In this document: piece after piece, positions 2,158 through 9,920 of the stretch | How the letters are laid out: every line of letters begins with the position of its first letter | Numbering within the stretch: position 1 is the first letter of the stretch | DNA from: Deltaproteobacteria bacterium RIFOXYA12_FULL_61_11 | Lineage (GTDB): Bacteria; Bdellovibrionota_F; JAHFAK01; YA12-FULL-61-11 | Direction of reading: 5' to 3' | DNA: 9,920 nt | Assembly: GCA_001799195.1 (NCBI GenBank) | Contig: MGSU01000141.1 | Coordinates: 1 to 9,920, forward strand | The notes under the pieces: generated by a model | What the model was told of the DNA's origin: nothing | What the model saw: the letters and a program-made list of their open reading frames with translations, nothing else | Database searches by the model: none | Translations under genes and position numbers: made by a program

Positions 2158-3057
2158 TCACTCGTAGCAATACACGCGCACGCTCTCGAAATAGCCGTCG
2201 AGTAGGAGTATTCGTCCTGTCGTGAGTCCCCCCTCACCGGGCCAGGTCGGTTCCGGCCGGCACAGCAAGGTCGGGTGGGTGACGGTCAACTCAACCTCCC
2301 CGGGTTCGAGGTTGAACCAGAGGATATCGTTGTCCTCGGGGCCCAACCCGCCCTCGACCAGGACGATGCCGTCCTCGGCGGATCGCAGGATCATGGGGCC
2401 TTCCCCGGAAGCCGGGGCCAACGTGAGGTTCGCTCCCTCGAGGGAGAGGTCGTCGTCGTTCGTTCGGAAGGACACCGAGAGGATGGGTTTCGCGGGGTCG
2501 AGCGTGAAGGGCAAGGTCGAGAGCAACTCTTCGTGCCCCATCTCGGCCAGGCTGACCAGGTGCGAAGGGTCGAGGGAGAGGTCGTGCTTGCCCAGGGCGA
2601 CGGTTATCGAGAGGGGACGATAGGCAGCGAGGTTGAAGGTTAACGTCACTTCGAGATTCTGCGGGAGGTCGGTGACGGCATAGTCGCCGCTGGCGTCGCT
2701 CTCAGCGCACGGGAGTTCGCTATGGCCGTGGACGCATACCTGGACCCCTTCCAGGGGGACCTCGGGTCCGAAGGCCGTCTTCGTGCCTTTCACCGAGCCG
2801 AGGATGTCCACGGTCGTCGGTGCTGTCTCATCGTCGCTGGGCTCGGTCGGTGGTTGGGGATCGGCGGAGTTGTCCGGGGTCACAGGTGGGACGGAGGGTT
2901 CGTGATAGAGCGGCACCGGGGTGTCGCCCCCTGCCCCCGTGAAGGGGAGTTCGATGCCCTCCTGCCAGGAAGCGGTTCGTTCCTCTTCTTCCCCGGCTTC
3001 GTCGCAGCCGAACAACCCCAACAGTAGGAACGCAACGCCGAGGCTTCGGAGGGGCAT
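2158..3057 (-). CDS. Lipoprotein with carboxypeptidase-regulatory-like domain
   Basis: This encodes 299 residues from the ATG at 3057. An in-frame ATG 60 bases upstream (3117) exists. I prefer 3057 because it places a short basic start and hydrophobic core right before the lipobox (L-F-G-Cys18), and AGAGG sits seven bases before it. Asp19 follows the lipidated Cys. In enterobacteria that favours inner-membrane retention, but the rule may not hold here. Residues 19-82 are an acidic, Pro-rich linker. Residues about 83-160 (V-D-I-L-G-S-V, V-P-L-E-G-V-Q-V, then S-D-A-S-G-D-Y and a following strand) match the pattern of a carboxypeptidase-regulatory-like beta sandwich, which in secreted proteins is usually a structural or binding module. 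The remainder (about 190-299) also looks all-beta, with Cys266 and Cys297 as a possible disulphide. No catalytic motif is visible. It lies between two other lipoprotein genes in the same direction (gaps of 86 and 96 bases). Confidence 0.85.
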   Translation of the reverse strand: MPLRSLGVAFLLLGLFGCDEAGEEEERTASWQEGIELPFTGAGGDTPVPLYHEPSVPPVTPDNSADPQPPTEPSDDETAPTTVDILGSVKGTKTAFGPEVPLEGVQVCVHGHSELPCAESDASGDYAVTDLPQNLEVTLTFNLAAYRPLSITVALGKHDLSLDPSHLVSLAEMGHEELLSTLPFTLDPAKPILSVSFRTNDDDLSLEGANLTLAPASGEGPMILRSAEDGIVLVEGGLGPEDNDILWFNLEPGEVELTVTHPTLLCRPEPTWPGEGGLTTGRILLLDGYFESVRVYCYE

Positions 3058-3143
3058 GGAGTAACCTCTAGGTGGTGACGTTTCCCAGCTCGGTGCAAGG
3101 ATATAACGCCAGAGCATGACCTATGCGAAGGTGGTGGTCGGTG

Positions 3144-5003
3144 TCAATCGAGAAAACCGGCCAGGAGGACGAGGTTCCGGCCTTCCATCTCAATCCGCGT
3201 GACCGCCGCTCTCCCGGAACGGGGGGCTTCCCCGGAAGTTCTCGCCCAATTGACGGTCAGCCAGGTGAGTTCGTCCGGTTTCGCTCGAGCAAGGAGGTCT
3301 TCGTTCCCCTTGATCTCGGAGAGGTTTGTTTCCCGCGCCAGCCCGGGGATGGCAGGCTCGACCAGGACGTCGCCCGAGGCATCGAAGACCAGGACCCGTA
3401 CCTCGTCCAGATTGTACCCGGCATGGGGTTGGTTCAACCGCTCGAGGCCCACGAGCAGGTGTTCTCGGAGCAGGGCCGTGGCCTGTTCCACGAGGTCTTC
3501 GACGAGGTGCTCGTCGGGGCGGAGGTCGAACTCGCCGCTGGCCACGAGTACCCGCTGTCCACCCTTCAGGGTCGCCTCCCGAGCGTAGGTGCTCTTCCAG
3601 GAAGCGAAGAGCTCGCCCGGAGCCGGGATGCGGTAGTGGACCCATCCTCCTCCTCTGGCCGCGGCCTCGAGCAACCACTGGCCGAAGGGTCGGCCATCGA
3701 CATCGGTCGTCTCGAGAGCGCTCGTGCCTTCGATGCTCGGATCCGGCGGATAGACCAAACGCTTGCCGTTGAGGTCCCAGACGAAGACGTAACGGTCTTC
3801 CTTGTACCAGGTTCCTTCCGGATCGCGCAGGTCGCTGAAGGCGGTCTGGCCCTTTGCTTCCAACAGGGTCACCGCCTCAGCGACAAAGTGCTCGAGGTCC
3901 TGTGCGGTGGTCGTGGCCACGGGATCGGCGCTGACCTCGCCGCGATAGAGTCCTGATCCTATGACGACGGCCTTACCTTCGAGTTGCAGGGCTTTGAGAT
4001 AGGTGTGTTTTTCCCGAAAGTTCGTGTCACCCGGGCTTGGCCAGAGGTGATCGTACCACACCCCGTCTTGGTGGGCCTGCACCGCCGCGACCGCCTCGGA
4101 GAACCAGGGGACTCCGTCCGGACCTTCGTACTCGGCATAGCTCTGTGCGTCACGTCCGGTGGTAAGATAAGGGAAGCCGGCCTCGAGGATGAGGATGGCG
4201 GTGAAGTCCATGATGAATAGATATTGATCGTTGTATTGGTACCCGGCGAGTGGGTCGAGGAACTCCGCGTAACCGTACTCTCCGACCTTCTGCACATGGG
4301 TCCTCGCGCTCTCGACCAAGTCCTCCACCATACCCTCGTCCGGAGGCACATCGAAGTCGTCGCAGCCCACGAGATAGGAGGTCCCGCTCGGGAGTTCCAC
4401 CTTCGTCAAGTAGAGCGATTTCCAACGGGGGAAGGGATCTCCGGCCGGGACCTGCTCGAAGTGGACCCAACCGGACCGGTCGGGATGGTCGGCCGTGGCC
4501 AGGATCAACGCGCCGAGCGGACGCCCTGCGGCATCGACGAGCGCCGAACCCTCGGCGCCGACGAGCGTCGGGGCCAGGGAGTCGGTAAGAATCTCTCCAC
4601 TCGGGCTCCAGACGATCACGTGACTGCCCCCCTTGGTCCACGGTTCGAGCGGCTTCGCGAAGGTTTGCAGGGCGGCTGCTCCCTTGTCCTCGAGGAGGGC
4701 TTTCGCCGAGGCGACGACGTCCCTCACGCCCTGGGCGTCCTTCCTCGCGTTGGCTGCAACAGGGGCAGGGGGGAGGGTGAGGCGCACCTCGTCCGACGAA
4801 GCCTCTCCGTCGGATGGTGGTCCGGAGTCGTGCGGCTCGCTCGTCGCATCCTTACCTCCGTCGGGCTTCTCGTCGGGTGTATCGCCGGAGGCATCTCCTC
4901 CTGTGGTCGTTTCAGAGGGGGGGGGTTCGTCATCGTTCTCCGTGCAGCCGGAGAGCAACGCAAGAAGGACTAGTACGAGGAGAAGGCTACGTTGCAGCAT
5001 CAT
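3144..5003 (-). CDS. Lipoprotein with four tandem Cache-type sensor domains
   Basis: This encodes 619 residues. Two adjacent ATGs (5003 and 5000) could both serve as start. The Shine-Dalgarno signal is weak. A strong lipoprotein signal peptide ends in L-S-G-Cys20. Residues 21-80 are a low-complexity linker rich in D, E, P, S, T and G. Four Cache-like units follow: about 92-216, 225-354, 367-492 and 500-619. Each has an N-terminal helix (for example V-T-L-L-E-A-K-G), a hydrophobic strand with an asparagine or serine turn (V-F-V-W-D-L-N-G-K), a G-W-V-H-Y or similar strand, a P-x-P-G-like loop, and a closing strand such as V-L-V-A-S-G-E-F. Cache domains normally bind small extracellular ligands for chemoreceptors or kinases. 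Here there is no transmembrane segment after the signal and no HAMP, kinase or MCP part. Units 1 and 3 both end in F-D-x-x-P-D-E followed by V-E-D-L-V, so a two-domain block was duplicated. A role as a lipid-anchored ligand-binding protein is inferred. It is first in a three-lipoprotein run. Confidence 0.88.
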   Translation of the reverse strand: MMLQRSLLLVLVLLALLSGCTENDDEPPPSETTTGGDASGDTPDEKPDGGKDATSEPHDSGPPSDGEASSDEVRLTLPPAPVAANARKDAQGVRDVVASAKALLEDKGAAALQTFAKPLEPWTKGGSHVIVWSPSGEILTDSLAPTLVGAEGSALVDAAGRPLGALILATADHPDRSGWVHFEQVPAGDPFPRWKSLYLTKVELPSGTSYLVGCDDFDVPPDEGMVEDLVESARTHVQKVGEYGYAEFLDPLAGYQYNDQYLFIMDFTAILILEAGFPYLTTGRDAQSYAEYEGPDGVPWFSEAVAAVQAHQDGVWYDHLWPSPGDTNFREKHTYLKALQLEGKAVVIGSGLYRGEVSADPVATTTAQDLEHFVAEAVTLLEAKGQTAFSDLRDPEGTWYKEDRYVFVWDLNGKRLVYPPDPSIEGTSALETTDVDGRPFGQWLLEAAARGGGWVHYRIPAPGELFASWKSTYAREATLKGGQRVLVASGEFDLRPDEHLVEDLVEQATALLREHLLVGLERLNQPHAGYNLDEVRVLVFDASGDVLVEPAIPGLARETNLSEIKGNEDLLARAKPDELTWLTVNWARTSGEAPRSGRAAVTRIEMEGRNLVLLAGFLD

Positions 5004-5219: not shown

Positions 5220-5327
5220 TGTAAATTCCCATGTTGGACTTCGAAGTAGCGAATCGCCTTTTCGAAAGGGAACTGTAAATTCCCATGTTGGACTTCGAAG
5301 TAGCGAATCGCCTTTTCGAAAGGGAAC
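5220..5327. repeat. Exact 54-bp tandem duplication with REP-like palindromes
   Basis: Copy 1 (5220-5273) and copy 2 (5274-5327) are identical over all 54 bases, and identity stops sharply at both outer ends. Each unit contains a perfect 10-bp palindrome ACTTCGAAGT (5238-5247 in copy 1). It overlaps a GTAG tetranucleotide (5246-5249), which is followed by GCG-AAT-CGC (5249-5257) and the hairpin CCTTT-TCG-AAAGG (5257-5269). A further hairpin, GGGAA (5268-5272) with TTCCC (5280-5284), forms across the junction. A GTAG next to a short palindrome is the known layout of REP sequences recognised by RAYT transposases, and a RAYT gene begins 84 bases downstream. Identification as its cognate REP pair is inferred from layout and position. 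Confidence 0.8.
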
Positions 5328-5410: not shown

Positions 5411-6172
5411 ATGAGCCTGATCACCAACACCCGCATCCGCCGCGACCTACAACTTCACGACGGCGCCTTGGTCCACGCCTACTGGCAGTGTACCGACCAT
5501 GCTCGGCAGTACCTACTGCGCCACCCGAAATTCAAAGAACTGTACCTGAATATCTTGGCCGATAAGAAAAAGCACTATGGAATCAGCCTGATCGATGTCG
5601 CTCTTATGGACAACCACTTTCATTTCTTCATCCGCATTCGCACGGTGAGAGAGTTCTCTACCTACCTGCAGAGCGTGAATACCTCGTTCGCCAAGCTACT
5701 CAACCACGCCATCGGCAGGACCGGCTCGGTGGTGGAGCTGCGCGTCAAGGCTCAGGTGGTGGAAGAGACAGACGAGGCCGTGTTGGGGTTGCAGGTATAT
5801 CTGGCCCTGAACCGCTGGCATTGCGCGAAAAAGACGCGGCCGGAACACTATCGCTTCAGCGGATACCGGCATTATGCCGGGCTTGAACAGGACCCTCGAT
5901 TCGACTCCTCGGAAGCCTGGCTGAGCTTGGGTGAATCGGACGAAACACGCGCTGCGGCTTATAAAGACCTCGTTGAGGCCAAACGCCTGGAGGGAAGGGG
6001 CAACGATGAAGATCTCCTCGAACCCTCAAAACTGTATTTCGGTTCCCCGGAGTTCAGCCTCTCCCGCACCGAACGTCTGTTGATCGCGGTTCGCGAGCAC
6101 CACCGGGCGCTGCGCCAAGTCCGGAAACTGCGTCTCTTCGCTTCCGACGCTGCTACCTCGAAAAAAGACTGA
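5411..6172 (+). CDS. REP-associated tyrosine transposase (RAYT, Y1/HUH family)
   Basis: This encodes 253 residues, a usual length for the family. The protein should cut and rejoin single-stranded DNA at hairpin REP sequences through a transient 5'-phosphotyrosine bond. The metal-binding HxH motif is H69-F-H71 within M-D-N-H-F-H-F-F, equivalent to the common M-P-N-H-x-H-x-L. The probable catalytic Tyr130 lies in V-Y-L-A-L-N, at the place of the family's Y-I-x-L-N-P. After it comes R-P-E-H-Y-R-F-S-G-Y-R-H-Y, matching the usual P-E-D-Y-x-W-S-S-Y-R. The N-P-V-R of the common motif is N-R-W-H here, a divergence. The extra C-terminal part (about 165-253) is helical and charged, with a basic end. 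No Shine-Dalgarno is seen before the ATG, so expression may be low. Matching repeats lie on both sides. No frameshift or stop disrupts it. Confidence 0.9.
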   Translation: MSLITNTRIRRDLQLHDGALVHAYWQCTDHARQYLLRHPKFKELYLNILADKKKHYGISLIDVALMDNHFHFFIRIRTVREFSTYLQSVNTSFAKLLNHAIGRTGSVVELRVKAQVVEETDEAVLGLQVYLALNRWHCAKKTRPEHYRFSGYRHYAGLEQDPRFDSSEAWLSLGESDETRAAAYKDLVEAKRLEGRGNDEDLLEPSKLYFGSPEFSLSRTERLLIAVREHHRALRQVRKLRLFASDAATSKKD

Positions 6173-6306: not shown

Positions 6307-6338
6307 GGCAATTCGAATACCCGAAGTCCAATGTGGGA
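6307..6338 (-). repeat. Diverged inverted copy of the 54-bp REP-like repeat
   Basis: Read on the minus strand, these 32 bases align without gaps to bases 8-39 of the 54-bp unit, with 23 identical positions. Two blocks are best kept: TTGGACTTCG and CGAAT-GCC. The stretch between them, which holds GTAG in the intact copies, is changed to GGTATT. The copy lies 135 bases after the transposase stop, inverted relative to the upstream pair. This is the expected position of the second flanking REP. The latter third of the unit is not recognisable. Confidence 0.6.
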
Positions 6339-6360: not shown

Positions 6361-7953
6361 TCACTGCTTGTTTGAGCGCTTCGGCTTTCGGCGCCGCTGT
6401 AGGACGCCGAGAAGCCCTATTACGACGAACACAAGGAAAACACCCGAATTGGCCGGTACAGTTCTTCCAGCAATCCCGCAACCCGAGGCCGCGTGCTCTT
6501 CTTGAGGTTGAGTTGCTTGAGATGTTTCGGTCTTGTCGGTAGTACTATCAGTGCGCGGAAGGTCATCAGCGTCCACGTTGTCTTCTGCAGAGGTCTCGAG
6601 AAGAGCAGGATTGGCTATACCTGCCTCAATGAGATCGTGTTGAAAGGCAGTTAACGTCGCAGCGTGATACTCATGGGTATTGGTAGGATCGATATACGCA
6701 ACTTCGTCGATGTTTCCTGTTTCCGGCGTATACCGCAAAATACGCACAGACGTGCTAAAACATCCTGGAAACGACCAATAGGCAATATTATCAGCGTTTT
6801 TAAAACGTGGTGTGGAAATGATGAATTGATCCCCCAGCGTCATGTCGCTGGGAACCCTCACGAGATCAATGGCAGGTGAACCTTTCCCCATTTTAATGAC
6901 TTCGCCAGGTGTCCCAGTTCCCACGTAACATTCAACGATTTCAGCGCGTACGAGTTTGTCATCGATTGAAATTATCTGAACCAGGAAAATATCAGTTCCT
7001 TTATGAAACTTGAAATCTTCGAAAAATGATCGTCGTATCCCATTATCCGGTGGACAATCACCTCTCGACGTACTCACCCAAATATTTCCGATTATCATAA
7101 GATAGATCAAGAGGATTGATGTCCGTCCTGGGATAACCTGGGTTTTCGTGGCCATTCTAAAATCGTTCTCGAATTCCACACGCCGGCGCCGCTGTAGACC
7201 AAAGAGAAGACCTATCATAACCCAAAAAAGGAATGCACCTGCATTGGCCGGTTCTGTCTTTCCCACCATCCCGCAACCCGAGGCTGCGTGCTCTGGGGAA
7301 GCATCGGATGGCACTTCCTCAGTTTGGTCGTTACTTCGCGTGGTAGTTGATGTGCTGCTAGATCCCTGCGGGTCAGTTTCGATCGAATTACCGACTCGCT
7401 GTGTCTCCAAAATAGAGGGATCCGCAATGCCCTCGGCCACGAGAAGTTGCTTGAAAGTGGCAATGGGCATACGTCCTTGATCCCCTCCACTTTTCGTGAT
7501 TCTCCCCAGGACAATACTATCCTGGACCGTGAGAAAGGTGTCCGCAGAATAGGTATCGTCAATCAATGGTCGTTCTGTAGATAACTGCAAATGAATCAAC
7601 GCGATATGTTCAGTACTCGTCAATTTGTTTGCGAAAAGATAACTCGGGCAGGTGGCATTCCAAGCTTCAGGTATAATAACGGTTATTTGTTCGATCTCAA
7701 TCTCATCAACAGGTTTATACCATTCGATAACTTCGACATGTCTAAATCGCCACCGTCGTTCTTTCGTAGCCTCTTCGATAATTCCCAATCGGATATGAGC
7801 GATTGACTGAGCGGATTGTGCGAATTCGATGAAAGCAGGACTGTTTTCAGATTTTACAGGTATCGCACAAGGAAGCACAGCTGTGCTGGACAATAGCAGG
7901 GTTACACAGACCAGTAGTTGAATATATCGCAGTGCATTACTCGTTGTACTCAA
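6361..7953 (-). CDS. Fused pair of secreted paralogues, each with a MYXO-CTERM-like tail
   Basis: This is one uninterrupted frame of 530 residues. The start is TTG at 7953, chosen because AAGGTG stands six bases before it and it follows the upstream stop by five bases. Unit 1 (1-266) has a Sec signal peptide (hydrophobic 11-28), a predicted beta-rich body, and a Ser/Thr-rich linker (196-218). It ends in a tail: A-S-G-C227-G, hydrophobic 239-253, then four Arg (255-258). Unit 2 starts at Met267 (7155) and repeats the plan: a new hydrophobic signal (278-293), a body with Cys300, Cys342 and Cys398, a linker, A-S-G-C492-G, a hydrophobic stretch (504-518) and a basic end. The units align in the tail and in x-G-I-A-x-P-x-x-L-E-T before the linker. 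MYXO-CTERM tails are processed by a myxosortase and leave the protein on the cell surface. The bodies faintly recall NTR/TIMP-like domains, a weak guess. Two genes fused by loss of a stop is the simplest reading. Confidence 0.8.
   Translation of the reverse strand: MSTTSNALRYIQLLVCVTLLLSSTAVLPCAIPVKSENSPAFIEFAQSAQSIAHIRLGIIEEATKERRWRFRHVEVIEWYKPVDEIEIEQITVIIPEAWNATCPSYLFANKLTSTEHIALIHLQLSTERPLIDDTYSADTFLTVQDSIVLGRITKSGGDQGRMPIATFKQLLVAEGIADPSILETQRVGNSIETDPQGSSSTSTTTRSNDQTEEVPSDASPEHAASGCGMVGKTEPANAGAFLFWVMIGLLFGLQRRRRVEFENDFRMATKTQVIPGRTSILLIYLMIIGNIWVSTSRGDCPPDNGIRRSFFEDFKFHKGTDIFLVQIISIDDKLVRAEIVECYVGTGTPGEVIKMGKGSPAIDLVRVPSDMTLGDQFIISTPRFKNADNIAYWSFPGCFSTSVRILRYTPETGNIDEVAYIDPTNTHEYHAATLTAFQHDLIEAGIANPALLETSAEDNVDADDLPRTDSTTDKTETSQATQPQEEHAASGCGIAGRTVPANSGVFLVFVVIGLLGVLQRRRKPKRSNKQ
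6388..6495 (-). other. C-terminal MYXO-CTERM-like sorting tail of unit 2
   Basis: Residues 487-522 of the fused protein: H-A-A-S-G-C-G, a spacer with A-N-S-G, a hydrophobic helix, and L-Q-R-R-R-K. The tail lies close to the true C-terminus, as expected for a functional sorting signal. Confidence 0.65.
7180..7290 (-). other. Internal MYXO-CTERM-like sorting tail of unit 1
   Basis: Residues 222-258 of the fused protein: H-A-A-S-G-C-G, a spacer with A-N-A-G, a hydrophobic helix, and L-Q-R-R-R-R. It is the same signal as at the C-terminus but placed mid-protein, eight residues before a second start methionine. These signals normally end a protein, so this supports two ancestral genes. Confidence 0.65.
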
Positions 7954-8414: not shown

Positions 8415-9920
8415 ATGATGTCCCGACCGGTGGTGCTGCTCCTGCAACTCTCCCCCCCTCGCGCCTATGCGGCCGAGGCTCACGACAACGAACCGCTCGG
8501 CCTGGGCAATCTCGCCGCGTGGTACCAGATCCATTCCCTCTCTCGGGCCTACGAAATCCGTATCGCTCCCGCCGATTGGAACGATCGGGCCGGGGATGCC
8601 GCTCTCCTCGCCAGGGTCGTCGCTCAAGCACCCGCCGTGGTCGGCCTGTCGCTTTTCTGCTGGAATCTCCTGCGCTCGCTCTCGCTGGCGTCGGCCTTGC
8701 GAGCCGTCCTGCCGGAAACCTTGCTCGTGGCCGGAGGACCGGAGGTCACCGCCGATAACGACGTGCTGCTCGGGTCCGGTAGCTTCGATTTCCTCGTGCT
8801 CGGTGAAGGAGAACGCCCCTTCACCGCGCTCCTCGATGCGCTCGCCGCGGGCACGAGCTGGCAACATTTCGTGCCCGACGGTCTGGTCGTCCGGGCGAAG
8901 GACGGGTATCGCTCGGCCTGGAAACCCGACCGAGGGGTGGCTCTTGACGAACTGCCTTCGCCCCATCTCCACGGTATCCTGCCGATCGGTACGACCGTGC
9001 GCATCGAGACCGCTCGGGGTTGCCACCGCCGCTGTGCCTATTGCTTCTACAGCCGGCATGCCTCCCAGCGCAGCACGCTGTCCTTGGAACAGCTTGCCAC
9101 CCTGTTCACCTACGCTCGGGCGCATGGCGGCCGAGAAGTCTTTCTCGCCGACCCCGAGCTCACCCAGCGTCAGGATCTCGACCACTACCTCAAGGGGCTT
9201 GCGGCAGCCAATAGAGGTTCGGAACTCTCGCTGTTCGCCGAACTCAGCGCCGAACAGATAACGCCGGCCAGAGCGGCCTTGTTGCGCGAGGCCGGGGTCA
9301 AGGGGGTGGAGGTCGGGTTACAGAGCACCAACCCCGAGGCCCTCCGGGCAGTCGGACGGAGCTGGCGCGAAAAACGGTTTTCGAGGGGGCTACACGCGCT
9401 GCGGGAAGCCGGACTTGCCGTGACCGTCGATGCGATCGTCGGTTTACCCCACGATGGCAGCGCGGAAATAGCCGCCACGATAGCGTATCTCGTCGGACTC
9501 GGTTTTCGGACAGAAACCCAGGTTTTCCCTCTCGCGCTCTTGCCGGGGACCAGGCTTCGAGCCGAAGCCCTGCGCCATGGGTATCGCCGCGAGCAGTTTC
9601 CGCCCTATCTGGTGGTCGAGAGTTCCTGGTTGGCACCTGCAGAGGTGTCCTGCGTGCTGGCCGAGTGCGACGACAAGCTCGGTGGAGGCTACGACTCGAG
9701 GCAGCCCCCGAGGCTATCGCCGCTGACCGGGGCAGAGGAGTCCGACGGGTGGTTGTTCGAAAGGGGGGGAGCAGGTTACCTCGAGCGGATCGTGGTCAAA
9801 GCAAAGGACCTCCGCTCGCGACCCTCGCGCCTCACGGCCGACCTCTCTTCCTTCCTGACCCTCTGGGTGCGAGGTCTTGTGGACGAGGAAGACCTCGAGG
9901 CAACCGGAGCCCTCGTCCGC
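8415..9920 (+). CDS. B12-binding-domain radical SAM protein, C-terminus beyond the window edge
   Basis: The frame is open for 502 codons to the right edge. ATGs at 8415 and 8418 are adjacent. An in-frame stop at 8340 and no other start between limit the choice. No strong Shine-Dalgarno is seen. Residues about 5-150 form a cobalamin-binding Rossmann-like domain: V-V-G-L-S-L-F-C-W-N, V-A-G-G-P-E-V near 105-111, and the diagnostic G-E-G-E-R-P-F at 130-136. The classical D-x-H-x-x-G cobalt-ligand motif is absent, as in many class B radical SAM enzymes. The radical SAM core follows with C203-x3-C207-A-Y-C210 for the [4Fe-4S] cluster, then V-E-V-G-L-Q-S near 298-304 and A-I-V-G-L-P at 340-345. The enzyme should cleave S-adenosylmethionine to a radical and may use cobalamin for methylation or rearrangement. 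The substrate cannot be told from the sequence. It is divergent from the secreted-protein cluster and GC-rich, so probably unrelated to it. Confidence 0.9.
   Translation, partial: MMSRPVVLLLQLSPPRAYAAEAHDNEPLGLGNLAAWYQIHSLSRAYEIRIAPADWNDRAGDAALLARVVAQAPAVVGLSLFCWNLLRSLSLASALRAVLPETLLVAGGPEVTADNDVLLGSGSFDFLVLGEGERPFTALLDALAAGTSWQHFVPDGLVVRAKDGYRSAWKPDRGVALDELPSPHLHGILPIGTTVRIETARGCHRRCAYCFYSRHASQRSTLSLEQLATLFTYARAHGGREVFLADPELTQRQDLDHYLKGLAAANRGSELSLFAELSAEQITPARAALLREAGVKGVEVGLQSTNPEALRAVGRSWREKRFSRGLHALREAGLAVTVDAIVGLPHDGSAEIAATIAYLVGLGFRTETQVFPLALLPGTRLRAEALRHGYRREQFPPYLVVESSWLAPAEVSCVLAECDDKLGGGYDSRQPPRLSPLTGAEESDGWLFERGGAGYLERIVVKAKDLRSRPSRLTADLSSFLTLWVRGLVDEEDLEATGALVR

Follow-up and report, generated by a model that had tools for sequence, protein, structure and literature searches.

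The window analysed here, a stretch of 9,920 nucleotides that makes up a whole contig, encodes a predicted lipoprotein with four consecutive Cache units and no output domain. Judged by its sequence, the protein carries an export signal, and its units represent a duplicated block of two. We tentatively propose that it is a lipid-anchored, ligand-binding accessory protein, most likely of a permease or channel; the binding of a ligand as well as the existence and identity of a transporter partner we infer. The gene, its parts and the adjacent lipoprotein genes are listed in Table 1.

Table 1. Features of the four-Cache gene and the two lipoprotein genes that follow it (residue numbers refer to the four-Cache protein)
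Feature	Position	Strand	Basis
Whole gene, lipid-anchored four-Cache protein, 619 aa	3144..5003	-	ORF; Pfam sCache_2 and dCache_2; AlphaFold
Lipoprotein signal peptide, residues 1-19, MMLQRSLLLVLVLLALLSG	4947..5003	-	Sequence read; precedes Cys20
Cys20, predicted lipidation site, lipobox LSGC	4944..4946	-	Sequence and pattern match
Acidic low-complexity linker, residues 21-84	4752..4943	-	Sequence
Cache unit 1 (A type), residues 85-222	4338..4751	-	Profile match 86-222; A versus B profile; AlphaFold
Cache unit 2 (B type), residues 223-360	3924..4337	-	Profile match 220-358; B versus A profile; 4k08; phmmer
Cache unit 3 (A type), residues 361-497	3513..3923	-	Best Pfam sCache_2 stretch; A versus B profile; 4k08
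Cache unit 4 (B type, diverged and without the pocket), residues 498-619	3147..3512	-	Profile match 495-619; AlphaFold; 3lif
Junction motif FDVPPDEGMVEDLV, units 1/2, residues 217-230	4314..4355	-	Sequence
Junction motif FDLRPDEHLVEDLV, units 3/4, residues 492-505	3489..3530	-	Sequence
Second lipoprotein gene, next on same strand, start probably near 3058	2158..3117	-	ORF; lipobox LFGC
Third lipoprotein gene, 687 aa visible, truncated by contig end	1..2061	-	ORF; no Pfam match

An earlier note on this DNA had placed the gene correctly at 3144-5003 and left its coding strand, the minus strand, unstated. The signal peptide leads into a lipobox read as L17-S18-G19-C20, from which lipidation is predicted; the Pfam model LPAM_1 matched with an E-value of 0.39, under its cut-off. 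By its signal peptide with a lipobox cysteine the protein would count as a bacterial lipoprotein. The linker from residue 21 to about residue 84 (~65 residues) is enriched in D, E, P, S, T and G. Only Cache domains follow it, and the ORF stops within unit 4 at residue 619. According to Pfam and hydropathy, the transmembrane helix and output domain of Cache receptors, kinases and cyclases are absent; the highest hydropathy window beyond residue 40 reaches 1.66 and lies within unit 2. The lipoprotein signal, the flexible linker and the lack of anything after the units are therefore as the earlier note had described them. A scan for sigma-70 promoters yielded no site.

Pfam sCache_2 (PF17200) matched the protein in three stretches (E = 2e-22, 80.1 bits for a cut-off of 25) and dCache_2 (PF08269) matched residues 251-475 (E = 2e-15, 57.3 bits for a cut-off of 26.5). 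A profile of nine units, seeded from the window protein and three other proteins, retrieved all four units with E-values from 1e-35 to 1e-52. Because this seed included the window units themselves, independent support for the number of units comes from structure. AlphaFold models built with four-sequence alignments displayed Cache topology in both members of each pair (units 1-2: pLDDT 83, pTM 0.82; units 3-4: pLDDT 86, pTM 0.80), so that the prediction gives four Cache folds and not fewer than three, as the earlier note had read from the sequence. Structural matches to 4k08 (Adeh_3718) had Z-scores of 16.2 for unit 2 and 16.7 for unit 3. Other top solved matches were PscD (5g4y) and a Vibrio sensor (4exo), both sCache_2 domains; the former was also matched by unit 2 in phmmer (E = 5e-7). 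Unit 4 gave the weakest match, e.g. to the histidine-kinase Cache domain 3lif with a Z-score of 11.0 (model residues 136-259). The models have the Cache fold with a long N-terminal helix that is expected of sCache_2, unit 4 matching it less well. By fold the window units belong to sCache_2 and dCache_2.

The relationship between the units was analyzed by pairwise alignment, profiles and trees. Smith-Waterman scores of 181 for units 1 and 3 (z = 31), 107 for units 2 and 3 (z = 15) and 81 for units 2 and 4 (z = 14) lay beyond those of every shuffle (maximum about 50), and units 1 and 3 are 35% identical. The near-identical motifs noticed earlier after units 1 and 3 are indeed present (Table 1). 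Trees paired unit 1 with unit 3 (support 88-93/68-70) and unit 2 with unit 4 (55-58/85). Since the tree tool flagged the joining of units 2 and 4 as a meeting of long branches, the units were typed by profiles. The A profile was built from the first and the B profile from the second units of 14 two-Cache proteins, the window protein being left out; when each test protein was left out in turn, all 28 of 28 held-out units were sorted correctly. Units 1 and 3 were assigned to type A with 85.6 versus 46.4 bits (margin 39) and 127.1 versus 70.1 bits (margin 57), units 2 and 4 to type B with 68.5 versus 58.6 bits (margin 10) and 39.8 versus 22.2 bits (margin 18). The order A-B-A-B from the profiles, with which the trees agree, thus supports an old A-B pair and a later tandem copy in the window protein (A-B to A-B-A-B), and with it the duplication of a two-Cache block put forward in the earlier note.

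In that note a Cache protein lacking a signalling domain was regarded as exceptional, which did not hold: many genomes encode secreted Cache proteins that stand alone and comprise one, two or four units. A sample of 1,883 genomes was searched; because the searches started from the A-B block, the relatives found are skewed towards window-like proteins. Other genomes of this sample contained 16 two-Cache proteins that have either a signal peptide or a lipobox but lack an output domain, together with two further secreted four-Cache proteins, G285 (568 aa) and G907 (583 aa), both of which stop at their last unit. Single-Cache secreted proteins of 150-180 residues were many, and one family has two or more copies per genome. 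The homologues have no membrane or signalling domain that was split off in the window: stand-alone Cache proteins are a real class and not an artefact of a lost signalling part. The closest two-Cache relatives of the window protein are G004 and G291; unit 3 is 43% identical to a unit of G004. A contig scan with a three-row alignment found two loci only, one in the UBP14 bacterium UBA6098 (the contig of G004) and one in a Duganella, and no relatives of the four-Cache protein were found among viral contigs. Two genomes were examined for the phylum of the host, whose own assembly comprises 4.6 Mb in 342 contigs (87% complete). The four-Cache protein was absent from the other one, which precludes a close comparison within the phylum. 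In a literature search that lay largely outside subscription journals we found no report of stand-alone secreted Cache proteins or of Cache-permease fusions. As a separate observation, the secreted GH3 glycosidase encoded by G175 (L040:34-1617, +) carries at its C terminus a Cache unit that is close to the A units of the window.

The other four-Cache proteins seem to have a different history. Unit 1 of G285 clusters with one two-Cache gene of G406 (tree support 91-95/80-86) and unit 3 with another one located about 7 kb away (100/91-99), while unit 4 departs from this paralogue pattern. Since units 1 and 3 each cluster with a different gene, the G285 protein looks like a fusion of neighbouring paralogues, unlike the window protein. 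G907 shares some unit groupings with G285 (unit 2 with unit 2, 99/94), and the two may be of common origin. Even if they have one origin, the window route differs, and the trees hence indicate that the four-Cache form arose at least twice.

A linkage to transporters was observed for part of the two-Cache relatives. In G103, G673, G674, G718 and G996 a two-Cache gene lies 7-13 bp upstream of an Xan_ur_permease (NCS2) gene. Four of these five Cache proteins (G103, G673, G674 and G718) contain a lipobox-like cysteine; the permease reading frame of G996 is broken. The five genes form one clade, which is far from the window protein in the trees. In G538 a two-Cache gene follows a Sugar_tr (MFS) porter by 13 bp and stands just before galactokinase in a galactose operon, and in G083 a two-Cache gene shares 4 bp with the gene of an MscS-type channel. 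In G980 (L096:6780-9194, +) two Cache units equipped with a signal peptide are joined to a complete L-lactate permease (PF02652, E = 1e-138) in a single chain. This fusion was seen once; among those loci of G980 relatives whose reading frame was inspected there was no second one. Counted as raw loci, seven stand-alone relatives and one fusion are associated with transporters in four different ways. No receptor or kinase recurred beside multi-Cache genes in any operon seen, so that the homologue search suggested by the earlier note found recurring transporters beside some relatives and no recurring receptors. The Cache relatives thus suggest transporters rather than receptors as partners. Many multi-Cache genes have no recurring neighbour; among these are the four-Cache genes and those of the nearest relatives G004 and G291, and the two-Cache genes of the latter have no transporter beside them.

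Two further loci were noted. G694 (L081:4055-5364, -) holds a decayed version of the pair of Cache lipoprotein and NCS2 permease, in which both genes are much shorter than those of their relatives through apparently in-frame internal deletions, possibly an assembly error. In G143 (L037:8079-14312, -) a two-Cache gene comes right after an apparent bamA-skp-lpxD-lpxC envelope-biogenesis operon (gene names assigned by eye).

We compared the pocket positions of the units with those of PscD, which binds C2-C3 carboxylates via Tyr90, His103, Tyr143 and Lys156, surrounded by Trp92, Trp145 and Phe126 (PMC5062169). In the alignment (PscD numbering) most A units of the family retain Tyr90, Tyr143, Trp145, Lys156 and often His103; B units mostly have Asn at position 103. 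At positions 90/103/143/145/156 the window units read H/D/F/Q/K (unit 1), Y/E/H/W/K (unit 2), Y/Y/Y/I/K (unit 3) and R/E/V/W/G (unit 4). Unit 1 has retained only Lys156 of these five residues and unit 4 only Trp145. The triad Tyr90/His103/Lys156, which marks carboxylate binders and is not required for membership in the sCache_2 fold family, is complete in none of the four units, His103 being replaced in all of them. The window pockets are more degenerate than those of the family. Units 2 and 3 could hold a ligand, which need not be a carboxylate, whereas unit 4 probably could not.

Based on these results we propose the following mode of action. The gene product would be exported and subsequently lipidated at Cys20. 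Its acidic tether of about 65 residues would keep the four Cache units away from the membrane. Small molecules would bind to one or two units with a partial pocket (units 2 and 3), while units 1 and 4 would more likely act as a scaffold. The protein would then work as the accessory subunit of a partner in the membrane, most probably a permease or channel, and either deliver the substrate to this partner or gate it according to supply. Next to the Cache gene itself there is no transporter in the window: it is followed by two lipoprotein genes, the last of which runs off the contig. The second lipoprotein (2158-3117) has a weak carboxypeptidase-regulatory-like domain (Pfam CarboxypepD_reg, E = 0.001, under the cut-off). 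The third (1-2061) contains hydrophobic stretches in its second half, and no homologues of its 687 visible residues were found in 97 other genomes. By analogy with the relatives a transporter is nevertheless the better guess for the partner in the host.

The earlier note had envisaged a ligand collector that passes its ligand to another receptor. The collector is a reasonable reading, whereas the receptor as recipient is not borne out, since the recurring partner among the relatives is a permease. In the form of a co-receptor, which would bind the ligand on behalf of a sensor histidine kinase and present it there, this idea can point to five dCache_1 matches in the host genome. Three of them exceed the cut-off and belong to proteins that read as histidine kinases, some of which adjoin response regulators, so that a kinase partner is possible; G291 also has a histidine kinase and a regulator nearby, on the opposite strand. 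A chemoreceptor as partner is unlikely, because no MCP signalling domain was found in the host genome at 87% completeness; the genome also has no other sCache_2 gene. Given in addition that kinases and receptors do not recur in the operons, we regard a co-receptor as unlikely, although it is the most probable of the alternatives. Next in probability, and likewise unlikely, is a protein at the surface or in the periplasm that buffers or scavenges small acids or related molecules and has no dedicated partner. The abundance of single-Cache secreted proteins, including the multi-copy family, and the many multi-Cache genes with no recurring neighbour would agree with such a role, but not the tight linkage of several relatives to permeases and the fusion of one.

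The degenerate pockets leave some room for the other proposal of the earlier note, a surface adhesin built on the Cache fold, or for a structural protein of this kind. The lipid anchor, the long acidic linker, the three lipoproteins in a row and the pocket residues missing from units 1 and 4 are consistent with it. It gained no positive support, however, pocket residues being kept in most family members and several also in units 2 and 3, and unit 3 is well conserved in comparison with G004. We consider an adhesin or structural protein with decayed pockets improbable. That the protein is the remnant of a receptor which lost its membrane and signalling part is very improbable. Cache domains are usually parts of receptors (PMC4822843), but in many genomes the relatives are stand-alone proteins that carry a signal peptide of their own, and each of the other two four-Cache proteins terminates at the last Cache unit.

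The accessory protein we favour can be compared with several known systems. The sCache_2 domains of chemoreceptors (PscD 5g4y, Adeh_3718 4k08, Vibrio 4exo, TlpB 3ub6) have the same unit fold (best Z-scores 13-17) and share the positions of several pocket residues with the window units. They occur, however, as a single unit on a transmembrane receptor, whereas the window protein carries four units behind a lipid anchor and lacks an output domain; the triad residue His103 is missing from the window protein. The dCache_2 domain has been described as a duplicated sCache_2 (PMC4822843). Its two consecutive sCache_2-like units correspond to those of each window block; the window protein differs in that it has two of these blocks in a row and lacks membrane and signalling parts.

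The nearest parallels as a working arrangement would be Dret_0059 and the alpha2delta subunits. According to PMC8694187 (citing Wu 2017), Dret_0059 (5ERE) joins a solute-binding module to tandem PAS-like/Cache domains in one chain. It resembles the window protein in that an extracytoplasmic Cache pair is connected with solute binding, with a Foldseek match over both units of each block, and differs by its separate solute-binding module, absent from the four-unit window protein, and by other Cache types. The metazoan alpha2delta calcium-channel subunits and Cachd1 contain four Cache units in two pairs (PMC9901441) and, like the window protein, combine these with a membrane anchor and no cytoplasmic domain; the window models matched 7vfs and 9eq6 with Z-scores of about 10. 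Alpha2delta is lipid-anchored and acts on a membrane channel with no cytoplasmic signalling domain of its own; in the window protein the anchor is predicted and the partner presumed. In alpha2delta and Cachd1 the Cache domains are of the dCache_1 class, a VWA domain is inserted into the first of them, and the GPI anchor sits at the C terminus. Pfam detected neither VWA nor dCache_1 in the window protein, which therefore, lacking a VWA domain and belonging to another Cache class, is not a member of the alpha2delta family. The likeness is one of arrangement and fold.

A more doubtful extension is that stand-alone multi-Cache lipoproteins as a whole form a class of bacterial transporter or channel accessory proteins, a functional parallel of alpha2delta, with independent assembly of the four-Cache form on at least two occasions. 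Cache domains are seen as the sensors of transmembrane receptors; a 2016 survey reported known output domains for all Cache families except one and makes no mention of transporters in its text (PMC4822843). If true, the linkage to transport would be a second bacterial role for the fold and would offer a simple picture of how the alpha2delta subunits of animals acquired their action on a channel. The permeases tied to such Cache proteins by operon or fusion are those for nucleobase-like compounds, lactate and sugar. The idea of an accessory subunit can be tested directly on the permease-linked clade and on the lactate-permease fusion.

The remainder of the window lies upstream of the Cache gene. 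A B12-binding radical SAM protein is encoded at 8415-9920 (+), truncated by the contig end and matched at cut-off by none of the listed NCBIfam models. Such a gene is found near a Cache gene in G040, too, but a functional link was rejected, because in the window a transposase and another gene separate it from the Cache gene, and because the Cache proteins of the two loci are remote from each other. A perfect 54-bp direct repeat is present in two copies at 5220-5327, with a partly complementary copy at 6307-6338. It stands in the presumed promoter region of the Cache gene, appears to be a REP-like element and has an IS200-like/RAYT-type transposase gene (5411-6172, +) next to it. The 530-residue ORF at 6361-7953 (-) consists of two paralogous halves with MYXO-CTERM-like tails at residues 190-258 and about 468-522; since the second half has its own signal peptide, the ORF reads as a fused tandem pair or as two genes that lost a stop codon between them.
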